A stretch of DNA of 64,000 bases from an uncultured Pelagibacteraceae bacterium (GTDB lineage: Bacteria; Pseudomonadota; Alphaproteobacteria; Pelagibacterales; Pelagibacteraceae). The DNA lies in the NCBI GenBank assembly GCA_902524955.1, contig CABZEY010000001.1, positions 124,001 through 188,000 of the forward strand. Direction: 5' to 3'. The notes beneath the pieces are model-generated. The model saw only the letters and a list, made by a program, of their open reading frames with translations. It was not told the DNA's origin and did no database searches. The translations under genes were made by a program, and so were the position numbers. Positions 9,715 through 44,435 of this stretch are shown in pieces (within the stretch, counting starts at the first letter, position 1; every line of letters starts with the position of its first letter).

Positions 9715-11079
9715 TTAGTTCGCAAACAAAGTTTCTGGTAACCATAGTGCAATACCTGGAAACAAATACATTAATACCATTGCAAAAATTACTATTCCTA
9801 AGAATGGACCAATTCCCTTAAATATTTCCAATAGTTCCACATTCTTGGATTGCACGCCTTTAAGATAATAGGCTGACATGGCCATAGGTGGAGTTAAAAA
9901 AGAAGTCTGCAAATTTAATGCTATTAACATAGCAAAGAAATATGGATTAACATTATAAACTTCTAATAATGGTAAAAAAATTGGAACAAATATAATTAGT
10001 ATCTCTGTCCATTCAAGCGGCCAACCTAGTAAAAAAATTATTATTTGTGTGATTACAAGAAATTGCCATGGTTTTAAATCCATTGACGTAAAAAAATGTT
10101 CAAAAACTTCATGACCACCTAAATAAGAAAATACTGATGCAAAAGTCCAAGAACCAACGAAAAGCCACATTATCATTGCTGATGTTTTAGCTGTGAGAAA
10201 AACTGAGTCTTTAAAATTCTTCCACTTTAATGACTTGTAAATTAATGAAAGAAAAATAGATCCTAGGGCACCGATCGCTGCAGCCTCTGCAGGTGTTGCG
10301 AGTCCAGCGAGAATAGTTCCAAGAACTAACATTATTAAAGTAAATAATGGAACAAATGAAATTAGGATTTCTTTCACTATTTCAAAAGTTGGGGGAATTT
10401 CCTCCGCTGGTGGTTTTGGCGCTACTTTAGGATTAAAATAAGCTAACGTTATCGAATAAATAATATATAAAAATGCTAATAGTAAGCCTGGGAAAATAGC
10501 GGCAGCAAATAATCTAAGTGGTGATAGTTGAGCAATTACTGAATAAACAATAAGCATTATGCTTGGTGGTATTAAAATTCCAAGGCATCCTCCTGCGCAA
10601 ATGACTCCAGATGCAAACTTTTTGTCATATCCAGCTTTAATCATAGCTGGCCAAGCCAATAAGCCCATTAAAGTCACTACCGCTCCAATTATTCCTGTTG
10701 CTGTAGAAAATAAAGCACATGTTACTAAAGCTGCGACTGCCATTGAACCAGGTAACTTATGAGAAGCCAACCTGATCGCAAAAAATAATCTAGATACAAT
10801 TCCTGCCCGTTCTACCAGATAACCCATGAATAAAAATAAAGGTACAGCAGTTAAAACATTATTGTCCATTACAGTGTAAGTATTCTGAACAAATAGACCA
10901 AAAATTCTATTATCCAAAATATGGTCCATGATTGCCCAATCAAAGTAGGCGTAGTAACCAAAAATAATTCCCATTGCCATTAAAGTGAAAGCAATAGGAA
11001 AACCTAACAGGACACATCCTAAAAAAACTACCATCATTATGATAGCTATCGTTGGGTTAGGTATATAGTATCCAAACAT
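9715..11079 (-). CDS. dctM: TRAP transporter large permease (DctM family)
   Basis: This is the 454-residue large membrane subunit of a tripartite ATP-independent periplasmic transporter, which drives uptake of organic acids and related solutes with a sodium gradient. It is hydrophobic throughout, with about 12 helices and the typical GxxLGIPIAFxL start (FLGCVLLGFPIAFTL) and GILIPPSIMLIVYS. It lies 4 bases after DctQ. The extended C-terminal helices are consistent with the larger DctM type. The substrate is not evident. Confidence 0.93.
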   Translation of the reverse strand: MFGYYIPNPTIAIIMMVVFLGCVLLGFPIAFTLMAMGIIFGYYAYFDWAIMDHILDNRIFGLFVQNTYTVMDNNVLTAVPLFLFMGYLVERAGIVSRLFFAIRLASHKLPGSMAVAALVTCALFSTATGIIGAVVTLMGLLAWPAMIKAGYDKKFASGVICAGGCLGILIPPSIMLIVYSVIAQLSPLRLFAAAIFPGLLLAFLYIIYSITLAYFNPKVAPKPPAEEIPPTFEIVKEILISFVPLFTLIMLVLGTILAGLATPAEAAAIGALGSIFLSLIYKSLKWKNFKDSVFLTAKTSAMIMWLFVGSWTFASVFSYLGGHEVFEHFFTSMDLKPWQFLVITQIIIFLLGWPLEWTEILIIFVPIFLPLLEVYNVNPYFFAMLIALNLQTSFLTPPMAMSAYYLKGVQSKNVELLEIFKGIGPFLGIVIFAMVLMYLFPGIALWLPETLFAN

Positions 11080-11083
11080 TTTG

Positions 11084-11671
11084 TTATTCTTTATTAAATT
11101 CTGTATGGGAAGTTCTCATTAATATTTTTTCAGTCTCTTCTGAATCTATCTCTCTTGAAGCCCAATTACCGGTTTTGATACAAACTATGCATCTTAAAAC
11201 TTCAGCTACACCTTGTAATGTCAATAATAAACCTGACAATGGTATAAGCGACTTAGCCATATATATTTGAATTTGAGCAGGACTGTTCCAACTAGTTTCT
11301 TTCACTTTCCATGCCATACCAGCGTAATCTATGCCTGCAAATGTTAATGCTAAAACACCTGGGAAAAAAAATATAAAATATAGCCATAAATCTAACTTGG
11401 CCTGTTTCACTGGTTTCATTAAACGATACAAAACATCTCCTCTAACATGTGCTTCTGTAGCTAACGTATAAGCTCCTGCCATCATGAAGATTGCTCCATA
11501 CATCTGTAGACTGAAATCAAAATTCCATAAAGTTGGCTTATTAAAAACATAAGCCATTATAACTTCATAACATGTTCCCAAACACAAAATTACGATACAC
11601 CAGGAAAAAGCTTTCCCCACCGATATACTTAATGTGTCGGCAAATTTTATGTAAGTGTTATATTTTTCCAT
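11084..11671 (-). CDS. dctQ: TRAP transporter small permease (DctQ family)
   Basis: A 195-residue small subunit with four hydrophobic segments. The pattern WNFDFSLQMYGAIFMMAGAYTLATEAHVRGDVLYR is typical of DctQ proteins. It sits between the receptor and the large permease, and a stable hairpin separates it from dctP, so the receptor can be made in excess of the membrane parts. Confidence 0.9.
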   Translation of the reverse strand: MEKYNTYIKFADTLSISVGKAFSWCIVILCLGTCYEVIMAYVFNKPTLWNFDFSLQMYGAIFMMAGAYTLATEAHVRGDVLYRLMKPVKQAKLDLWLYFIFFFPGVLALTFAGIDYAGMAWKVKETSWNSPAQIQIYMAKSLIPLSGLLLTLQGVAEVLRCIVCIKTGNWASREIDSEETEKILMRTSHTEFNKE

Positions 11672-11700
11672 GAAAGATCTATATTCTTTTTTAAGTTATA

Positions 11701-11730
11701 AAAAAAGGGGGATTTTAATCCCCCTTTTTT
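11701..11730 (-). terminator. Strong hairpin between dctP and dctQ (attenuator or mRNA stabiliser)
   Basis: Arms AAAAAAGGGGGATT and AATCCCCCTTTTTT form an almost perfect stem with a very short loop, ending in a U-run on both strands. It lies 14 bases after the dctP stop and 30 bases before the dctQ start, inside the operon. It would act as a partial terminator or 3-prime end stabiliser that leaves more dctP than dctQM transcript. The structure is seen directly, and the role is inferred. Confidence 0.85.
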
Positions 11731-11743
11731 AGATTTTAAAACA

Positions 11744-12910
11744 TTAGATTTTTACACTTGCTATCGGACCAAACTCATTCTCATAAGCCAATCTGTAATT
11801 TGGTTGATTCATGAGTAAGTATTTCATCACTTTTTTAGCATAAGCTTTTTGAGAGTTGATAATTTTTGCAAAGAATGGATCTTTAGCAGAAAATTCTTTT
11901 ACAACTTTATCCCAACCTTTTAACTGTTCAGCTAAAATTTCATCTGATGTTTGATAAACATTTACACCGCTCTCATTCATTAGTTTTGCTAAATCATTTG
12001 AGTATCTTACAAGTGCTTTAAAATAGTTATCACTGTTTGCACTGTAAGCAGCATATTTAAGAATTGCTTGATGTTTAGGCGATAAACTATTGTATCTTTT
12101 TTTGTTTATCGGAATTTCAAACATCTCTTGTGATTGGTGAAATGACCCTAAATGGTAATGCTTAGACACATCCTGCATACCAAACTGAGAGTCTGATGTA
12201 GGGTTGTTAAATTCCGCTGCATCAATTAATCCAGTTTTCATAGCTGGCTGAATTTCTCCACCTGGAAGTTGTCTAACTACCATTCCCATTGCAGTAAGAA
12301 CGTTCGTTGCTAATCCAACAGTACGATATTTCATACCTTTAACATCGGCAACTTTAGTTACATTCTTTTTAAACCAACCGAAAGGTTGTGCTGGCATTGG
12401 CATATGAAAGAAACCAACGTAATCGTATCCTACTTTACTTAATGTTTCTTCATATAATGCTCTACCTCCACCATATTCCATCCATCCCATAACTTCTTGA
12501 GATGATAATCCGTATGACGGTCCTGTACCAAATAAAGATGCAGCAGGATTTTTTCCGTACCAGTATGCTGTCACCCAATGCCCCATATCTAAGGCACCAG
12601 AGCTAACTGCTTGTCCGATTTCAGAAGTTTTTACAACTGCTCCAACTGGCTGCAAATCAATTTTTAATTCTCCACCTGACATTTCCTCTACCATTCTTGT
12701 GTAGTCTTTTGCCATTTCGAAGAAAATATTTGCTCCACTTGGCCATGCAGCTTGCATTTTTAAAGTGACAGTTTTTCCACCGCCGCCACCGCCGCTCTCT
12801 TTAGGCTTACAAGCAGCGAGTAGACCAGCTGTAGCTAAAGCTCCAGTTGCGGCTGCTTTTTTTAAGAAACGACGTCTTTTACTTGTAGTCGTTTTTGTTT
12901 TTTGTGACAT
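11744..12910 (-). CDS. dctP: TRAP transporter solute-binding protein (DctP family)
   Basis: This is the periplasmic receptor that captures solute for DctQM. The 388 residues open with SKRRRFLKK, a twin-arginine-like signal, and a hydrophobic stretch ending LLAACK, so it may be lipidated at Cys34. A glycine-rich linker follows. The DctP core includes QAAWPSG, GALDMGHW, the central MKYRTVGLATNVLTAMG with the family's binding arginine, and GLIDAAEFNNP. This resembles the DctP group for 2-oxo acids and lactate-type solutes more than C4-dicarboxylate DctP, but the substrate is not proven. GGGAGAAAAAC precedes the start. Confidence 0.93.
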   Translation of the reverse strand: MSQKTKTTTSKRRRFLKKAAATGALATAGLLAACKPKESGGGGGGKTVTLKMQAAWPSGANIFFEMAKDYTRMVEEMSGGELKIDLQPVGAVVKTSEIGQAVSSGALDMGHWVTAYWYGKNPAASLFGTGPSYGLSSQEVMGWMEYGGGRALYEETLSKVGYDYVGFFHMPMPAQPFGWFKKNVTKVADVKGMKYRTVGLATNVLTAMGMVVRQLPGGEIQPAMKTGLIDAAEFNNPTSDSQFGMQDVSKHYHLGSFHQSQEMFEIPINKKRYNSLSPKHQAILKYAAYSANSDNYFKALVRYSNDLAKLMNESGVNVYQTSDEILAEQLKGWDKVVKEFSAKDPFFAKIINSQKAYAKKVMKYLLMNQPNYRLAYENEFGPIASVKI

Positions 12911-35907: not shown

Positions 35908-38103
35908 GTGGCAAAAAAAAAGAGAGGTAAAGTATCTAAAAAAAAGAAGACTGTAAGAAAAGCCAAAAAGAAAAAAGTGTCTAAAAAAAAGAAGACTGTA
36001 AGAAAAGCCAGAAAGAAAAAAGTATATAAAAAAAAGAAGACTGTAAGAAAAGCCAGAAAGAAAAAAGTATATAAAAAAAAGAAGACTGTAAGAAAAGCCA
36101 AAAAGCTAAAATCTGTAAAACAAAGAAAAAAGAAAAAAACAAATTTAAAAAAGCAAAATACAAATAACAATAATAAAATTTTCAAAGTACAACCTGAATG
36201 GGGAAAAAAAGCATATATCGACAAAATAGGTTATGAAAAAAAATATTCTCAATCTATTAATGATAATGACGCTTTTTGGGCTGAGGAAGGTAAGCGAATT
36301 GATTGGATAAAACCCTACACAAAAATAAAAGATGTTACATACAGTAAAGAAAATGTAGATATAAAATGGTTTTATGATGGAACTCTTAATGTTTCATACA
36401 ATTGTATAGATCGACATCTTCCGCGAAAAGCAAATGATACTGCCATAATTTTTGAGGGTGATGATCCAACAGTTGACGAAAAAATAACTTATCAAGAACT
36501 TAAAAATGAGGTTTGTAAATTAGCTAATGGTCTAAAAGAAATAGGTGTTCAAAAAGGTGATAGGGTTACAATTTACATGCCTATGGTTCCACAAGCCGTT
36601 TATTCAATGTTAGCTTGTGCTAGAATTGGCGCAGTGCATTCAGTTGTCTTTGGTGGTTTCTCAGCTGACTCACTTGCAGGAAGAATTATAGATTGTAAAT
36701 CTGAATTCGTAATTACAGCAGATCAAGGTGTGAGGGGGGCAAAAGTTATTCCATTAAAAAATACAACTGACGAAGCTCTTGAAAAATGTCCTGATGTAAA
36801 AAAATGTGTTGTTTTAAAACATACTGGTGCGGATATTAATATGAATGAGGGAAAAGACGTCTGGTATCATGATATAACTGAACATGCATCAATAGAATGC
36901 GAACCAGAAGAAATGAATGCTGAAGATCCATTATTTATACTTTATACTTCAGGATCAACAGGAAAACCAAAGGGTGTTCTTCATACAAGTGGTGGTTACA
37001 TAACTTATGCTTCAATGACACATCAATATATCTTTAATTATAAAGAAGGTGATATTTATTGGTGTACAGCAGATGTGGGTTGGGTAACTGGGCATAGTTA
37101 TATAGTGTACGGTCCTTTATCAAATGGAGCTACAACACTTGTTTTTGAAGGTGTCCCAACGTACCCGGATGCAGGACGTTTTTGGGATGTTTGTGATAAA
37201 CATCAAGTAAATATTTTTTATACCGCTCCTACTGCTTTAAGAGCACTGATGAGAGAAGGAGATGCTCTAGTTAAAAGATCAAGTCGAAAATCTATTAAAA
37301 TTTTAGGAACAGTTGGGGAACCAATAAATCCTGAAGCATGGTTGTGGTATCACAAGGTTGTAGGTGACTCTAGATGTCCGATTGTTGATACATGGTGGCA
37401 AACTGAAACTGGTGGTATCTTAATTTCTGCTCAACCTGGAGCTATTGATTTAAAACCAGGCTCAGCAACAAAACCTTTTTATGGTATCCAGCCAGCAATT
37501 GTTGATGATAATGGAAAAGAGTTAAATGGAGCTTGTGAGGGCAGACTATGTATGAAAGCATCGTGGCCTGGTCAGATGCGATCTGTTTATGGTGATCATC
37601 AAAGATTTATTGATACTTATTTTTCAACGGTTGACGGGATGTATTTTACCGGTGACGGATGTAGAAGAGATAAAGATGGTTATTATTGGATCACTGGTCG
37701 TGTGGACGATGTCATTATTGTATCTGGACATAATCTTGGGACAGCAGAAATTGAAAGTGCATTTGTATCTCATCCAAAAGTAGCAGAGGCCGCAGTGGTA
37801 GGTTATCCGCATGATATCAAAGGTAATGGATTATATTGTTATGTAACTCTTAATGCTGGAGAAGAAGGCTCTGAAGATCTAACTAAGGAATTAAAACAAT
37901 GGGTGAGAAAAAATATAGGACCTTTAGCTACACCTGATTTAATACATTTTACCCCAGGGTTACCAAAAACACGTTCTGGAAAAATTATGAGAAGAATTTT
38001 ACGAAAAGTTGCTGAAAATGATTATAGTAATTTAGGAGACACATCTACTTTAGCTGATCCAACTGTAGTTCAAAGTTTAGTAGATAATCGTTTAAATAAA
38101 TAA
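35908..38103 (+). CDS. acs: Acetyl-CoA synthetase with lysine-rich repeat tail
   Basis: Acs makes acetyl-CoA from acetate and ATP. The 731 residues are about 80 longer than normal because residues 1-90 form a tail of four 15-residue units ([15 protein letters not shown] type) plus [16 protein letters not shown]. The enzyme starts near 94 (VQPEWG), with [11 protein letters not shown] at 346-356, WWQTETGG, and Lys692 in [10 protein letters not shown], the usual acetylation site. A GTG start at 35908 with a run AAAGGGGGG upstream is the only good start, and there is no methionine between the tail and the enzyme. The tail may bind DNA, RNA or acidic surfaces. Confidence 0.93.
35932..36111 (+). 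repeat. Four tandem 45-base units encoding the Lys-rich tail of Acs
   Basis: The 45-base unit starts GTATCTAAAAAAAAGAAGAC and is repeated four times with small changes (S to Y in units 3 and 4, K to R at unit position 12, and KKLK at the end of the last copy). The units are in frame. Copy number may change by slippage or recombination. Confidence 0.9.
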
Positions 38104-38304: not shown

Positions 38305-38817
38305 GTGAAAGATTTTATTCAAACAATGATTAAGCCTGATTGGGATGATAATCCCAAAAAGGAAGAAATTTTGTTTGCTGCAAACTTATTAGAAATTGGA
38401 GAATTTCAACTTTTACAATTAGCTTACAAAGATTGGTATAATGAAGAATTACCTGAAAGATTAATTCATAGTATTTTTAGGGATTACACCATTAGAAGTA
38501 TTATTCCCGGCTGGGCAAGACACTATGCAAGAACAATTGCTCATCTTGATAGAACAAATCAATTAAATCCGCTTGATCCAAAATACCATGTATATGATAG
38601 AGAGTTTGGGAAACCAATTGGTGGGAAGGGTTTAGAGAGATTTGTGCTTGTCAGTTTAAGTATCACTACTTTTTTTTTATTTGCTTTTTATATCGCGATT
38701 ATTACAGTCGACGAACCAACTGATTTGCTACCACCATATTTTGAAAAAAAGAATATTTTTCCAGAACACTACAAACAACTGCCTAAACCTTTAGAAAAAA
38801 ATAAGAAAGAAATTTAA
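38305..38817 (+). CDS. Uncharacterised single-span membrane protein
   Basis: A 170-residue protein starting with GTG (VKDFIQTMIKPDWDDN). The first 105 residues are soluble and charged, with LLEIGEFQLLQLAYKDWYNEELPERLIHSIFRDYTIRSIIPGWARHYARTI. One membrane helix lies at about 112-130 and a proline-rich tail follows. I do not recognise a family. It lies 33 bases from the divergent SDHAF4-like gene and directly before the next small membrane gene. Confidence 0.65.
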   Translation: MKDFIQTMIKPDWDDNPKKEEILFAANLLEIGEFQLLQLAYKDWYNEELPERLIHSIFRDYTIRSIIPGWARHYARTIAHLDRTNQLNPLDPKYHVYDREFGKPIGGKGLERFVLVSLSITTFFLFAFYIAIITVDEPTDLLPPYFEKKNIFPEHYKQLPKPLEKNKKEI

Positions 38818-38818
38818 A

Positions 38819-39019
38819 ATGATTGATGTTCCTCAAGAATATGAAGGTCTAGTAAATATTATTTTTTTAATCGTAACGGCATTTATTGCCTATCATGGAC
38901 TAACCTACAGAAATAAAGACGGTGAAAGTAATTGGGTACATTTACTTTTCGGGTGTATTGCGGCGGTTTATTTCTTTCTTGTCTTATTTCAAGACGTTTT
39001 TAAAGTAATTTCTTTTTAA
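38819..39019 (+). CDS. Small membrane protein, unknown
   Basis: A 66-residue protein with two hydrophobic segments (about 11-28 and 42-64) and a short charged loop (YRNKDGESNWVH). The start is one base after the preceding stop. No family recognised. It converges with the TPR gene, overlapping by 4 bases. Confidence 0.6.
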   Translation: MIDVPQEYEGLVNIIFLIVTAFIAYHGLTYRNKDGESNWVHLLFGCIAAVYFFLVLFQDVFKVISF

Positions 39020-39636
39020 AGCTTACCCGGTTTATGCATTCTTTGTTCTGCATCTGCTTCAGGGAGTTTTAGAAGTCTTTTTTCCGGGGGCAACTGAAGT
39101 TGCTCATGAATATATTGTGCGCGATCTCTAACGGATGAAGGTTTGTTGATCATGTAAATAATTTTATGACCCAAGCCTGGACCAGCAACAGCCTCATGAT
39201 CAACCTCTAAGGCCTTAATATAATCCTTTAAAGCCTCCTCATATTGTTCTTTTCTATCTTTTATAATTCCTCTGTTTGCATAAGCAGCTGCTAAAGTACC
39301 TTTGCCTGTAAGATCATCGTCTTGTAACGTTTTATTTAAAAATTCTATTAACGCCGTTAGCTCTTTTGTTGCATCCACATATTCTTTTTTATTTATAAAG
39401 ACCAAAGCTCTACACATCATTGCTCCTCTATGCTTTGGATTTTTTTCTAAAGCAATATTTGCTTGCTCTATTGCTTCATCCCAGAGTTTATCTTTTAATC
39501 TTTGATCGCATATTTGTGTTTCATAATCTCCAGGAGGTCTGTCCCTAAAAGATTTAATTAACATCCACACAGTAAACATAACAAATGTTGATATTCCACA
39601 AATGATAACAAATCTTTTTAAAACTCTAGGATTCAT
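39016..39636 (-). CDS. TPR-repeat protein with N-terminal membrane anchor
   Basis: A 206-residue protein with one membrane helix (about 9-27) followed by two or three TPR-like helix pairs, including LWDEAIEQANIALEKNPKHRGAMMCRALVFINKKEYVDATKEL and EQYEEALKDYIKALEVD. It should be anchored in the inner membrane with the repeats on one side, probably binding partner proteins. Downstream of a small membrane protein gene (39639) with a 2-base gap. Partner not known. Confidence 0.78.
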   Translation of the reverse strand: MNPRVLKRFVIICGISTFVMFTVWMLIKSFRDRPPGDYETQICDQRLKDKLWDEAIEQANIALEKNPKHRGAMMCRALVFINKKEYVDATKELTALIEFLNKTLQDDDLTGKGTLAAAYANRGIIKDRKEQYEEALKDYIKALEVDHEAVAGPGLGHKIIYMINKPSSVRDRAQYIHEQLQLPPEKRLLKLPEADAEQRMHKPGKL

Positions 39637-39638
39637 TT

Positions 39639-39881
39639 TTAATAAAATACATTTTGTACGTACAAGTAACTAAATACAAATGATAATAAAATAGATGTAA
39701 ATCTAGCACGTTTATTTAATTTATTCTTAATTTCTTGATCTAATTCTTTTTTATCGGGATTATCTTTAAAAAATTTTTTCATGTAAAGCTGATATAAAAT
39801 TTTTTTTATTGGGAAATACAATGCAATAAATAATGCTATTGTCCAAATTGGCTGATGAAAGGTTTTATATAGTTCAAGCAT
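39639..39881 (-). CDS. Small membrane protein, unknown
   Basis: An 80-residue protein with hydrophobic stretches at about 11-30 and 61-78, and a basic, asparagine- and lysine-rich middle (YMKKFFKDNPDKKELDQEIKNKLNKRARF). No family recognised. It lies directly upstream of the TPR gene, so both may act together at the membrane. Confidence 0.6.
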   Translation of the reverse strand: MLELYKTFHQPIWTIALFIALYFPIKKILYQLYMKKFFKDNPDKKELDQEIKNKLNKRARFTSILLSFVFSYLYVQNVFY

Positions 39882-40032
39882 ACAACCCTAGGTATCACCT
39901 TAAAGTTTTTTTTTAAAATATAAAAAACCGCTAAAACCGCAGATATTTTTATTTGCAATGCAACAGCAAAGGCCCAATATCAGCAAGTTAGGTCTTAATT
40001 ATCAGGCTAAAATATTATAAATTTCCTGGATT

Positions 40033-40057
40033 GTTGCTGATTAGTTTAATTAGCAAC
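40033..40057 (+). promoter_or_regulatory. Hairpin in the symporter leader
   Basis: GTTGCT and AGCAAC pair at the ends of 40033-40057 with further ATT/AAT pairing inside, giving a 9-10 bp stem. It is followed at once by a second symmetric element. Both lie 25-60 bases upstream of the symporter start. The rest of the 39882-40094 gap (213 bases) holds no gene that I can see. Confidence 0.5.
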
Positions 40058-40069
40058 GTTACATGTAAC
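40058..40069. promoter_or_regulatory. Perfect 12-base palindrome in the symporter leader
   Basis: GTTACATGTAAC lies 25 bases upstream of the start codon and next to the hairpin. Its size suits a dimeric repressor or activator, but it may equally be part of an RNA structure. Not a known operator to me. Confidence 0.45.
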
Positions 40070-40094
40070 AAAAAACTAAACAAAGGGGGAAACC

Positions 40095-42038
40095 TTGTCA
40101 GCAAAAGTACAATGGTTATTGGCATTTGTCGTATTGTATTGGGTCTACTGTATTTATTGGGGATTCAAATCAGCGCAAATGGCCAAAAGTGCTACCGATT
40201 ACTTCGTAGCTGGTCGTAGACTAGGACTATGGGTATTCGTATTAGCAGCCACGGCAACATCGTTCTCTGGATGGACCTTTATGGGTCACCCAGGTTTGAT
40301 TTACCGTGATGGTTTCCAATATGCTTATGCCTCATTCTATGCAATCACAATTCCTTTTACGGGTGTGATGTTCTTGAAAAGGCAATGGATATTAGGAAAA
40401 CGATTTGGTTATGTGACACCAGGTGAAATGCTTGCAGATTACTTTAAAGGTGATGGTGTAAGATATTTAACAGTGGTGATTGCATTGTGTTTCTCAATTC
40501 CTTACTTAGGTCTACAGTTGGCAGCATCTGGAAAACTATTTAACGTTTTATCAGACGGTCTAGTAACTGTAACTGCAGGTACATGGATCTTATCAGCAGT
40601 GGTGCTAATTTATGTGGCATCTGGCGGATTAAGAGCTGTGGCGTACGTTGATACACTTCAGTGTATTCTTCTTGCGTTCGGAATTGTAGCAGTAGGTTTT
40701 ATCGCATACGATCTAGTTGGCGGTTGGACTGCACTTAACCAAGGATTAGCGAAAGTAGCTTTAGTTAAAGGCACTAAGTGGGGCGTGACTCCAGGTGACG
40801 GATACTCAGCATATCTAGCTATTCCTGGCGTAATTCAATTTACAGCAGGTTTGGGTAAAGAAACTCCTGTTGGTGGATTATGGACAGGCGTAATGGTGTT
40901 AACTTATATGTTTGCTCTTATGGGTATTCATTCAGCACCAGCGTTTTCTATGTGGTCTTTCAGTAACAAAGATCCAAGACCTTTTGCACCACAACAAGTT
41001 TGGGCATCGTCATTTGGAATTGGAGCAATCCTTTTCTTCTTTACGGCAGCTCAAGGTATGGGAGCTCACTTACTAGGAGCGGACCCTGTTGTGAATGCAG
41101 CTGGCGTGAACATTTCAAACGTTCTACCGGAATCAATTGGTAAAGGTGGTCAAGGAAACTTAGTTCCTTTCTACATCAATACTCTTGGTGATACGGCGCC
41201 ATGGTTTGTTGGTCTTTTAGCTGTATGTGCCTTAGCTGCTATGCAGTCTACAGGTGCAGCATACATGTCAACAGCTGGCGGTATGTTAACTAGAGACTTA
41301 TACAAAAAACTAATTAATCCTAGAGCTTCTAACGAAACTCAAAAATTCTTTGGAAGATTAGGGGTAGCGTTTATCGTGCTATCAGCTTTATTAGTTGCAA
41401 CATACTCAAGAGATGCACTAGTTCTATTAGGTGGATTAGCAGTTGCTTTTGGTTTCCAAATGTGGATGCCATTAATGTCAGTCTGTTATTTTCCATGGTT
41501 TACTAGACAAGGTGTAACTATGGGTATGGCAGCTGGTATCGTTGCAGTAATGTTGACTGAAAGTATTGGTCAAAAATTATTCGGTGCAGCTTTACCATGG
41601 GGAAGATGGCCTTTAACAATGCACTCTGCATTCTGGGGTATGTTCTTTAACCTAGGTATTGCAACAATCGTTTCAGCGATGACGCAAAATGCAAGTGATA
41701 GAGCGCACAGACAAAAATATCATGACTTCTTAGCTCAGCATGCTGGTCTTCCAGCTTCTAAGCAAGGTCTAAAACCAGTAGCTTGGGCAATTACTCTGGC
41801 TTGGTTGTTCTTCGGAATTGGACCTGGAGCTGTGATTGGAAATGATATCTTTGGTGCACCAAATGACTATGCTTCATGGACATTTGGAATACCTTCTATC
41901 TGGGCATGGCAGATTCTATTCTGGGCATTAGGAGTCGGAATGATGTGGTTCCTAGCGTACAAGATGGAAATGTCTACTATTCCAGATAAGGAAATCGTTG
42001 CATTAACAGACGATATTGGAAATACACAAAGAGCATAA
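40095..42038 (+). CDS. Sodium:solute symporter (SSS/SLC5 family)
   Basis: A 647-residue symporter with 13 or more helices, using the sodium gradient to import a small organic solute. The SSS traits are ATDYFVAGRRLGLWVFVLAATATSFSGWTFMGHPGLIYRDGF near 32-75 and VYVASGGLRAVAYVDTLQ near 175-195. It is the only clearly GC-richer, biased-codon gene in this part, so it is probably very highly expressed. Start is TTG at 40095 with strong AAAGGGGGAAACC before it. The substrate is unknown; acetate is a guess from the nearby acs. Confidence 0.9.
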   Translation: MSAKVQWLLAFVVLYWVYCIYWGFKSAQMAKSATDYFVAGRRLGLWVFVLAATATSFSGWTFMGHPGLIYRDGFQYAYASFYAITIPFTGVMFLKRQWILGKRFGYVTPGEMLADYFKGDGVRYLTVVIALCFSIPYLGLQLAASGKLFNVLSDGLVTVTAGTWILSAVVLIYVASGGLRAVAYVDTLQCILLAFGIVAVGFIAYDLVGGWTALNQGLAKVALVKGTKWGVTPGDGYSAYLAIPGVIQFTAGLGKETPVGGLWTGVMVLTYMFALMGIHSAPAFSMWSFSNKDPRPFAPQQVWASSFGIGAILFFFTAAQGMGAHLLGADPVVNAAGVNISNVLPESIGKGGQGNLVPFYINTLGDTAPWFVGLLAVCALAAMQSTGAAYMSTAGGMLTRDLYKKLINPRASNETQKFFGRLGVAFIVLSALLVATYSRDALVLLGGLAVAFGFQMWMPLMSVCYFPWFTRQGVTMGMAAGIVAVMLTESIGQKLFGAALPWGRWPLTMHSAFWGMFFNLGIATIVSAMTQNASDRAHRQKYHDFLAQHAGLPASKQGLKPVAWAITLAWLFFGIGPGAVIGNDIFGAPNDYASWTFGIPSIWAWQILFWALGVGMMWFLAYKMEMSTIPDKEIVALTDDIGNTQRA

Positions 42039-42058
42039 GCTTTTTGATATTTATCAAG

Positions 42059-42090
42059 AAAGGGCGGATCTTTATCCGCCCTTTTTTTTT
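42059..42090 (+). terminator. Intrinsic terminator of the symporter gene
   Basis: AAAGGGCGGAT (42059-42069) and ATCCGCCCTTT (42074-42084) form an 11-bp GC-rich stem with a CTTT loop, followed by a long T-run. It is the clearest terminator in the window and makes the symporter a single-gene transcript. Confidence 0.95.
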
Positions 42091-42131: not shown

Positions 42132-42794
42132 ATGAAAAACCAAGTAAAAATCTCACCTTCTATTTTATCTGCAGATTTTAGTAAATTGAGTGAAGAGATT
42201 CTTTCTTTAGAGAAAGGTGGTGCTGATATGATACATGTGGATGTTATGGATGGCCATTTTGTTCCAAATCTTACTTTTGGTCCGCCTGTAATAAAAAAAA
42301 TTAGAAAGTGTACAAAGCTGCCATTTGATGTTCATTTAATGATAACTCAAGTTGATAAATATATTAAGGACTATGCAGATGCTGGTGCTGATATAATTAC
42401 TATACATCCAGAAGCTACAAATAACTTATCACAATCAATTGATATTATTAAATCATGTAAAAAAAAAGCTGGGGTATCACTTAACCCAGAAACTTCAGTA
42501 GAACTTCTAAAGGATGACCTATTAAAAAAACTAGATTTAATTTTAATCATGAGTGTTAACCCTGGTTTTGCTGGACAAAAATTTATCCCTGAAGTGCTTG
42601 ATAAAGTAAAATTTTTTAGACATAAAATTAATAATAATAAATTAAATATAGACCTTGAGATCGATGGAGGAATAGATTTTAAAACTGCACCGCTTTCAAT
42701 AAAGGCTGGTGCTAATGTTTTAGTTTCTGGGACTACAATTTTTAATAATACAGGTAGTATATCAGAAAATATAAAAAATCTTAGAAAGAGTTAA
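42132..42794 (+). CDS. rpe: Ribulose-phosphate 3-epimerase
   Basis: Rpe interconverts ribulose-5-phosphate and xylulose-5-phosphate. The TIM-barrel features are SPSILSADFSKL at 8-19, HVDVMDGHFVPNLTFGP with metal-binding His and Asp, DVHLMI, SVNPGFAGQKFIP and EIDGGID. The 220 residues match the family. The stop is directly followed by the heparinase gene start. Confidence 0.96.
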   Translation: MKNQVKISPSILSADFSKLSEEILSLEKGGADMIHVDVMDGHFVPNLTFGPPVIKKIRKCTKLPFDVHLMITQVDKYIKDYADAGADIITIHPEATNNLSQSIDIIKSCKKKAGVSLNPETSVELLKDDLLKKLDLILIMSVNPGFAGQKFIPEVLDKVKFFRHKINNNKLNIDLEIDGGIDFKTAPLSIKAGANVLVSGTTIFNNTGSISENIKNLRKS

Positions 42795-44435
42795 ATGGGC
42801 CTAAGATTTATCAGGCTGTTCATTTATTCTGTTATCAGTTTTATCTTAGAAAAAATTAAAAAAATTTATTTCACAACCAAATACTACAACAATAGTTTAA
42901 GAGTTTCCCCACCTTCTAGAAGCTATGATATGAATAATGTTCCACTGCTTTTGGAACTTGAGGATAAAAATGAAAAAAGATTAGAATTATTAAATCGTTT
43001 TCATCAAAATATTTGGAAACTAGATAATATAGGTAAAAAACATCTAATAGAATTAAACAAATTTAATTGGTTGTCACAACTAGATATTAAAAATCAAAAA
43101 AATCTTGTTAAAAATATAATTCTAGCTTGGTTAAAAAAAAATCAAAATTACAACGAGAAATATTGGCATCATACGATTACTGCTAATCGTATAATATTCT
43201 TGATTTGTTGTTCTCATTTTACAATCAGACATGATGATATGGTCTATAGAGCAGCAATAACAAATAATATCGTAAAACAAGCGTTACATTTAAACAAAAA
43301 TTTAGCTTTTATTAATAATAAGCTTGATAAAATATTTATTTTAACTGCTTTAATTCTTGTGAGTGTAACATTTGAGGGTAACCAAAAACTTTTTCAAACT
43401 TCAATAAAAAATCTATCGAACGAGATAAAAGGAATTGTTGATCGTAATGGTTTCGTAGAAAGTAAAAATCCTGAGGACCAATTTTGGTTGACGCATCATT
43501 TAGTTTTAATAAGAGAATTTTTAATTTTTTCTCAAAACACAGTTCCAGAATTTTTAGATCATAGTATTCAAAAAATTGGTTCAAGTTATAAAGGATTGCT
43601 TTTTTCAAATAATTTTTTACCTTTGTTTAATGGTTGTAAAGATAGAGATACATCAGAATTTAATAAATTTCTTAAAGCAAAAAATTATAAATTTGACAAA
43701 AAAACTAAAGCTCATTCTTATTTAATTGCTAAAGTAAAAAAGTTTGAAATTGCACTAGATGCCAATAACCCTCCTTCCGATTTAAACTCGCAAAATTATC
43801 AAGCTGGTTGTTTATCTTTTGAATTTTTATACGGCGGGAAGAAAATTATATCTAATTGTGGATCTGCAAACAATTTTGGCGGAGAATTACCTTATCTTAG
43901 TCAAACTACTGCTGCTCATTCTACTTTAACTATTAATGATACATCATCGTGTTTATTTCAGAAAAATTCTTTAATAAGATCATATTATGGAAACTCTTTG
44001 ATACAAAAGCTCAAAGTTTATAAAAAGGATTTAAATACAGATAAAGACACCATTTCAATAATAGCTGGACACAATGGGTACCAAAAAAATTATAATACGA
44101 TGTACGAACGAAAAATAGTTGTTCAAGAAAATGAGGGTAAATTAGCTGGTAATGAATTAATAATTGTTGCAAAGAAAGATTTAACCTTTCTTAATTTTGC
44201 CCTTAGATTTCACGTATTACCTGATAACAAATTGATACAAACGCAAGGTGGAGACATACTTTTGAGTGTTAATAACCAGGGATGGAAATTCAAATCCTCA
44301 CATACAATCAAAATAGAAGATAGCCTCTATTTTGCACATCAGGATAAAATTAGTGAGTCTAAATGTATTTTAGTCGAAGGAACTCTAAAAGATAAAGTGA
44401 ATAATATAAACTGGACTTTGGAAAAAAGTAATTAA
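42795..44435 (+). CDS. Heparinase II/III-like protein
   Basis: A 546-residue protein with an N-terminal alpha/alpha-barrel region and a C-terminal beta-sandwich of the heparinase II/III superfamily. The clearest part is YQAGCLSFEFLYGGKKIISNCGSANNF and the later AAHSTLTINDTSSC, both typical of the family core. In alphaproteobacteria this type often lies next to purH, so a cell-envelope role is more likely than degradation of imported polysaccharide. It has no obvious signal peptide. Confidence 0.82.
   Translation: MGLRFIRLFIYSVISFILEKIKKIYFTTKYYNNSLRVSPPSRSYDMNNVPLLLELEDKNEKRLELLNRFHQNIWKLDNIGKKHLIELNKFNWLSQLDIKNQKNLVKNIILAWLKKNQNYNEKYWHHTITANRIIFLICCSHFTIRHDDMVYRAAITNNIVKQALHLNKNLAFINNKLDKIFILTALILVSVTFEGNQKLFQTSIKNLSNEIKGIVDRNGFVESKNPEDQFWLTHHLVLIREFLIFSQNTVPEFLDHSIQKIGSSYKGLLFSNNFLPLFNGCKDRDTSEFNKFLKAKNYKFDKKTKAHSYLIAKVKKFEIALDANNPPSDLNSQNYQAGCLSFEFLYGGKKIISNCGSANNFGGELPYLSQTTAAHSTLTINDTSSCLFQKNSLIRSYYGNSLIQKLKVYKKDLNTDKDTISIIAGHNGYQKNYNTMYERKIVVQENEGKLAGNELIIVAKKDLTFLNFALRFHVLPDNKLIQTQGGDILLSVNNQGWKFKSSHTIKIEDSLYFAHQDKISESKCILVEGTLKDKVNNINWTLEKSN

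Follow-up and report, generated by a model that had tools for sequence, protein, structure and literature searches.

A sodium:solute symporter with a conserved structured leader between acs and rpe in SAR11 bacteria, a probable in-place replacement of the DUF4212 and VC_2705-type module

The SSS-A locus

We analysed a 64,000-nucleotide stretch of a SAR11-type genome (positions 124,001 to 188,000 of contig CABZEY010000001.1; hereafter the window), focusing on SSS-A, a gene for a sodium:solute symporter. The source genome (G000; 971 kb, 85% complete) has close relatives named Pelagibacteraceae. SSS-A lies between acs and rpe, at the site where other SAR11 bacteria keep a DUF4212 protein and a symporter of the VC_2705 type, and we consider it probable that SSS-A is a highly expressed, Na+-coupled symporter for acetate or another short-chain monocarboxylate that replaced the DUF4212 and VC_2705-type module in place. 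The original prediction for this DNA had described an isolated gene, which proved wrong: SSS-A, P80, TPR and P170 form a conserved four-gene module beside acs. New relative to that prediction are the in-place exchange of one symporter type for another at the SAR11 acetate locus, the conservation of the structured leader and the three uncharacterised companions.

The hairpin, palindrome, G-rich ribosome site, TTG start and terminator that had been predicted were all recovered (Table 1). The 213 bases described as the leader (39882-40094) are the entire gap to the divergent open reading frame (ORF) of 80 amino acids (aa), and the transcribed part is probably about 70 nt. A promoter scan listed no sigma-70-like site in the leader, which leaves the putative -10 region weak. 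The terminator after SSS-A, claimed to be the best of the window, has the longest stem among those listed by a scan that covered the window outside 42301-44000, and by our own reading each of the 23 SAR11 loci extending beyond the stop codon has a GC-rich inverted repeat downstream of the gene. As judged from their sequences, P80 appears to be membrane-bound, and hydrophobic stretches are predicted at the N terminus of the TPR protein and near the C end of P170. The N-terminal extension of acs consists of lysine-rich repeats and is also present in relatives (L047, L136 and L142).

Table 1. Features of the acs-rpe locus, in window coordinates
Feature	Position	Strand	Basis
acs, acetate--CoA ligase, lysine-rich N-terminal extension	35908..38103	+	TIGR02188 equivalog, 1014 bits vs cut-off 725
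P170, conserved, family not recognised	38305..38817	+	Pfam/NCBIfam: 0 matches
TPR protein	39016..39636	-	PF00515
P80, small protein, 80 aa	39639..39881	-	Pfam: 0 matches
Putative -10 region TATTATAAAT	40013..40022	+	Kept in four g1 leaders (by eye); weak
Leader hairpin 1, 11 pairs	40033..40057	+	Folding of leader
Perfect 12-base palindrome GTTACATGTAAC	40058..40069	.	Sequence
Ribosome site AAAGGGGGAAACC	40082..40094	+	Anti-Shine-Dalgarno duplex energy -10.9
SSS-A, sodium:solute symporter, 647 aa, TTG start	40095..42038	+	PF00474
Intrinsic terminator, 14 pairs then T run	42056..42087	+	Terminator scan
rpe, ribulose-phosphate 3-epimerase, right border of acs-rpe locus	42132..42794	+	PF00834, 257 bits

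Exchange of symporter types between acs and rpe

For the comparison with the VC_2705 type, ten loci were fetched (SAR11 genera are designated g1, g2 and so on, g1 being that of the window). Seven of them (two of g5, one each of g4, g12 and g2, and two of g1) carry acs, a VC_2705-type symporter and rpe together; among the remaining three, L138 holds acs and the symporter with rpe out of reach, and L140 and L141 hold only SSS-B, a further symporter. The VC_2705 module of L142 consists of a DUF4212 protein (PF13937) and a 617-aa SSF protein, and this DUF4212 protein has no match in G000. SSS-A is bordered by acs on one side and rpe on the other in named SAR11 loci of g1, g3, g8 and g10. Upstream of the SSS-A module, acs was present in 15 of the 19 named SAR11 loci, two others ending too early and two carrying a 38% relative of acs, and the acs neighbour was 73-94% identical in the SAR11 loci compared.

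Presence was called in 197 genomes of the SAR11 family, for SSS-A from a best hit of at least 75% (fragments included) and for the VC_2705 type from a TIGR03648 match over the cut-off. The results showed SSS-A in 31 genomes, the VC_2705 type in 138, neither in 28 and both in none (Fisher P = 4e-20, uncorrected for relatedness). SSS-A itself scores below TIGR03648, the VC_2705/ActP type model (77.9 vs 320.75), and its own genome has no match over that cut-off. Genus g1 is itself divided, four genomes to four: SSS-A is present in that of the window and in three others, and G009 and G022 have acs, SSS-B and a VC_2705 module that is adjoined by a CBS/DUF294 protein and an exonuclease.

The companions of SSS-A were followed in its relatives, for which 265 matching stretches were found and the best 80 evaluated. 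Of these 80 loci, 70 had a member of the TPR protein's BLAST cluster and 48 a member of the cluster of the 170-aa protein. P80 relatives stood beside the symporter at six SAR11 loci, one Rhodospirillaceae locus and two Gammaproteobacteria loci. Across the 197 genomes, 29 have a TPR relative (one more has a weak match), and 28 of these 29 also carry SSS-A; a P170 relative occurs in 27, of which 26 carry SSS-A; the sole exception for both is the same genome, G099, which is 64% complete. Five of the 31 SSS-A genomes were without P170 and three without TPR. At the ten loci fetched, no P80, TPR or P170 was detected next to the VC_2705 type or SSS-B. With the three companions, the idea of accessory subunits of SSS transporters becomes testable.

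Codon use and ribosome site

Codon use was sampled in 276 ORFs (100 aa or longer) drawn from the window together with ten stretches of G000 (199 kb of 971 kb). SSS-A ranked first of the 276 in GC content (0.417), which bears out the claim that it is GC-richer than all its neighbours, and third in GC at third codon positions, and its codon use was the most divergent among the sampled ORFs of at least 300 aa. C-ending codons accounted for 55 of its 120 Phe, Tyr, Asn and Ile codons (0.458; rank 1/265; binomial P = 1.7e-14), the codons ATA, GGG, CCC, AGC and GAG were rare, and the four-fold degenerate sites were poor in C (0.054 vs a background of 0.091). All 19 named SAR11 orthologues kept both features (C-ending 0.35-0.52; four-fold C 0.04-0.09). 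Three VC_2705-type genes gave 0.61, 0.61 and 0.46 on the C-ending measure, with four-fold C of 0.04-0.05, compared to 0.15, 0.14 and 0.07 in three SSS-B genes. The codon signature goes with the slot, and we read the pattern in SSS-A as translational selection.

High GC and odd codons would also be left by a recent transfer from a GC-rich donor. The 61 relatives listed outside SAR11 among the best 80 of 265 (Rhodospirillales, Kiloniellaceae, a few Gammaproteobacteria and SAR324; 69-77% protein identity) do have coding sequences of 0.49-0.66 GC, and CTA, GTG and GCG are raised in SSS-A. However, a relic does not fit four-fold sites that are C-poor while C-ending two-fold codons are enriched, nor the persistence of both values in all 19 orthologues or their likeness in the VC_2705-type gene of three other genomes. 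Compared with the window gene, 52-56% of four-fold sites differ in L038, L043 and L050 and 43% in L034, all orthologues of other genera, so that a relic would have faded. On the four-fold sites and the VC_2705-type values, we rejected a foreign-GC relic as very improbable.

With each gene taken at its best early start codon, the Shine-Dalgarno pairing energy of SSS-A (-10.9) ranked 5/276, in agreement with the strong ribosome site that had been predicted, and that of acs ranked 3/276. The site AAAGGGGGAAACC is exact in 17 of the 26 SAR11 leaders compared below, and AAAGGGGGAA in 23. As a signal common to several genes, AAAGGGGGAAACC was rejected: with at most one mismatch it occurs at one genomic place, and the reversed control likewise at one. 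The start codon is TTG in all six g1 and g8 leaders and ATG in the other 20; outside SAR11, TTG stands at 30 of 61 tblastn match starts (hand count, listed relatives).

Codon selection, the rank of the ribosome site and the same signature in the VC_2705-type slot holder support the predicted very high expression of SSS-A, whose codon selection is approached only by the TRAP binding protein of the same window. In the rows available from an in-situ table in PMC5069720, the HTCC7211 gene "yjcG, Na+/solute symporter, Ssf family" is listed with counts of 0 and 3677; the latter, from the second column and taken to be RNA-Seq, lies above groL (2638) and tuf (1508) and is the largest value in the rows shown. 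From its name and length, this yjcG probably represents the VC_2705 type of this slot. A sodium symporter is also among the most expressed SAR11 genes in the available part of PMC4006046, and SSS-A is named in the accessible parts of neither paper.

Elsewhere in the window, TRAP transporter genes (DctM and DctP by Pfam) lie at 9715-12910 on the minus strand; the DctP gene has the second-strongest C-ending preference (0.431 among 265 genes) and is thus probably another top-expressed importer. An ffh small RNA motif (RF01793, 52.8 bits) lies at 667-719 on the minus strand.

The conserved leader

We compared the SSS-A leaders of 26 SAR11 loci from six genera (four loci dropped). The leader proved conserved in relatives, with 24 of the 26 folding at z < -2 relative to shuffled sequences (exceptions L002 and L021), and with each sequence folded singly, 25 have a hairpin of at least eight pairs at the place of hairpin 1 (L021 has five). 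Within its own genome, the fold of the window leader is good and not unique (z -2.6, rank 5/67), so that support for the structure comes from the comparison with relatives. Covariation was counted on alignment A2, which comprises 20 leaders of g3, g7, g2 and g10 (g1 and g8 left out) and in which L015 and L021, poorly aligned in the stem, were kept. The 12-pair stem was 89.5% paired in A2, and in the comparison of registers 90.7% compared to at most 55.7% when slid, with a covariation score of 0.218 compared to at most 0.101, and 7 of its 12 pairs had changes on both sides, which was reached by 0 of 500 shuffles. A consensus folding of all 26 leaders gave 8 pairs only, because the arms differ between genera and misalign.

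The leader hairpin could be an attenuator, or a terminator halting read-through from acs and P170, rather than a stabiliser. A T-rich stretch follows it in 19 of the 26 leaders, and in L013, the one relative scanned, the hairpin was listed as terminator-like (1 found vs 0.0 in shuffles). But the T-rich stretch is absent from every one of the four leaders of g1, that of the window among them, from both of g8 and from the one of g10, and the terminator scan does not list the window hairpin; we regard this function as unlikely. A scan of 39880-40140 with Rfam 15 gave nothing over the gathering score (best SAM-II, 15.7 vs 44), and a riboswitch or other leader known to Rfam was rejected on this result.

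The palindrome GTTACATGTAAC is identical in all six g1 and g8 leaders, and GTTTTATAAAAC stands in the same alignment columns in 16 of the 20 others. Its sequence is more conserved than the hairpin arms, with perfect symmetry in two versions and a single genomic place for exact GTTACATGTAAC, as would suit a DNA operator for a dimeric regulator controlling only the SSS-A gene. Against such an operator, the consensus GTTWYATRWAAC occurs at 5 places, not above the reversed control (5 and 5 vs 8 and 8), no regulator was recognised beside the SSS-A gene in SAR11, and the palindromes before the VC_2705 module differ in sequence or are absent. We hold the operator to be doubtful, and as a regulon signal the palindrome was rejected on the GTTWYATRWAAC count. 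The controlled expression that had been proposed is only suggested, by the conserved leader structure.

The ribosome site pairs back with CCTT(T) as a small hairpin in 25 of the 26 leaders; both-side changes occur in one of its four pairs, in one sequence, and we draw no claim from it. Among 50 leaders before the VC_2705 module, palindromes in a similar layout were found in most of g5, the three g1 leaders and part of g4, and no palindrome of at least 10 bases was found in g2 and in three of the four g6 leaders. As palindromes are missing or different there, we do not propose that the two types share a leader. Upstream of DUF4212, 15 g5 leaders (L146-L160) carry ACTTTTTACGTAAAAAGT, a perfect 18-base palindrome, just before the AGGGGGAAATATG ribosome site and start.

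Protein family and substrate

SSS-A matches Pfam PF00474 over residues 36-481 (107.4 bits vs 22.8). Seven NCBIfam models match it, none over its cut-off, and it falls below TIGR02121 for PutP proline symporters (94.4 vs 515.5). A Foldseek search with the predicted SSS-A model returned SGLT2, SiaT, CHT1 and SMCT1 at probability 1.00, with target-normalised template modelling (TM) scores of 0.74 for SiaT (TMq 0.57) and 0.70 for SMCT1. The predicted model thus has the SSS fold, which bears on the fold and not on the substrate. By Pfam and fold, SSS-A is a divergent member of the SSS family (TC 2.A.21). S385-T386 aligns with the SS of vSGLT and is invariant in 34 SSS-A sequences; we take it to be the serine/threonine pair of the Na2 site on helix 8, where sodium would presumably bind. 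A plasmid search gave a best SSS-A match of 32%. An open-access literature search, covering listings and passages, found no description of the SSS-A subfamily or its leader, and the words symporter and acetate are absent from the available passages of Meyer 2009 (PMC2704228).

In the 61 listed loci outside SAR11, the BLAST clusters of neighbours comprised CBS/DUF294 proteins (26), histidine kinases with a long membrane part (19), exonucleases (17), ScfRs regulators (12) and acs-like genes (5); one member of each of the first four clusters was checked in Pfam. In Pseudomonas fluorescens, according to the accessible text of PMC5715377, the acetate regulon of CrbS, a kinase with an SSS domain, includes acs, actP together with its DUF485 partner, and a CBS/nucleotidyltransferase protein. 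Together with acs beside SSS-A, these neighbours and this acetate regulon point to acetate or close acids, short of proof. Among the solutes proposed earlier, acetate is the best supported, the substrate itself being inferred from the neighbourhood.

SSS-A might instead carry another substrate (for example pyruvate, lactate, an amino acid or an osmolyte), the site beside acs being tolerant of insertions and the loss of the VC_2705 type a coincidence of lineage. It matches no NCBIfam substrate model over its cut-off, two loci of g7 and one of g2 have its module at a distance from rpe, and SSS-B shares the region with the VC_2705 type in some genomes. This explanation leaves unaccounted for the fact that no genome of the 197 has both SSS-A and the VC_2705 type, the codon signature common to both slot holders and not to SSS-B, and the acetate-type neighbours outside SAR11, and we assign it a low probability.

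Discussion

In the explanation that we prefer, SSS-A would import acetate or another short-chain monocarboxylate and so supply the acetate--CoA ligase encoded next to it. Some SAR11 would have received it as a module with P80, TPR and P170, in place of the DUF4212 and VC_2705-type proteins between acs and rpe. Selected C-ending two-fold codons and a near-optimal ribosome site would allow very high production, and the mRNA would begin with the conserved stem-loop, followed by the palindrome and an A-rich stretch. The stem-loop would most likely shield the 5' end of the mRNA and keep the ribosome site accessible.

Several observations weigh against parts of this explanation. SSS-A stays below the superfamily model TIGR00813 (113 vs 184 bits, E 1.7e-32), its predicted structure is of moderate quality (mean predicted local distance difference test score 69), and the substrate assignment rests on neighbourhood because no NCBIfam cut-off was reached. 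In P. fluorescens, the available text of PMC5715377 reports that deletion of actP hardly affected growth on acetate. At the slot, the three modules away from rpe do not fit, and in L049 and L050 the module adjoins only the 38% relative of acs; independent swap events are few, since the exclusion follows lineages and many genomes are incomplete. In the leader, five of the seven pairs changed on both sides come from the single, divergent leader L022 (our own reading), and shifting the partners by +1 yields as many pairs of this kind (7-8) and more cells (11-12, with 8-9 observed), so that the true register is set apart by its paired percentage and covariation score. The T-rich tail of 19 relatives is missing from the window leader, which makes one common function uncertain. 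Selection for C-ending codons leaves the raised CTA, GTG and GCG unexplained. Finally, the codon adaptation index of SSS-A relative to 23 ribosomal protein genes (picked by our own reading) is low (0.597, rank 273/276), so that the predicted use of preferred codons holds for the C-ending codons and not by this index. The index is low because the ribosomal protein genes of G000 are themselves unbiased (C-ending Phe, Tyr, Asn and Ile codons 89/548 = 0.162, compared to 0.160 overall), and as a check on expression it is misleading in this genome and would wrongly refute the claim.

As a correction of method, codon adaptation to ribosomal proteins overlooks the most selected gene of the sample; in this streamlined genome, selection would act on an acetate-type importer and not on the ribosome. 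Where the symporter type changes and the expression signature remains at the slot, nature has run an experiment on selection in streamlined genomes. More tentatively, SSS-A may form, with P80, TPR and P170, a new multi-part system for the uptake of acetate (short-chain acids) that has dispersed through Alphaproteobacteria, Gammaproteobacteria and SAR324 and taken the place of DUF4212-ActP in several SAR11 lineages, with either slot holder in SAR11 possibly among the most strongly translated genes and its leader kept by shape and not by sequence.

Comparison with known systems

Stem-loops at the 5' end stabilise bacterial mRNAs of the ompA type. The SSS-A leader resembles them in having a stem-loop close to the presumed start of a message that is presumably expressed at a high level, and in keeping its structure while the sequence changes; it differs in being known from sequence alone, with a presumed transcript start. 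MctP and the monocarboxylate symporters of the SSS family, human SMCT1 included, share the SSS fold, and SMCT1 is among the structural and profile matches; SSS-A stays below the MctP monocarboxylate permease model (NF046076, 70.9 bits vs 625), and a shared substrate is a possibility.

SSS-B (39-46% identical; L136 5995-7905, L138 5995-7923, L141 5863-7929) is, like SSS-A, a PF00474 member, and in g1 and g2 it occupies the same acs region. Unlike SSS-A, it has no codon selection (0.07-0.15 in three genes), and such a leader was not seen by eye in six loci. In g1 and g2 it stands beside the VC_2705 module; in g7 it lies next to other genes and occurs together with SSS-A.

The closest counterpart is the ActP (YjcG)/VC_2705 type with its DUF485 or DUF4212 partner, which shares with SSS-A the superfamily, the acs-linked slot of SAR11, the codon signature and a small protein as neighbour. 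The two types are only about 22-25% identical where aligned, and SSS-A stands with P80, TPR and P170 where the VC_2705 type stands with DUF4212 (PF13937 in L142).

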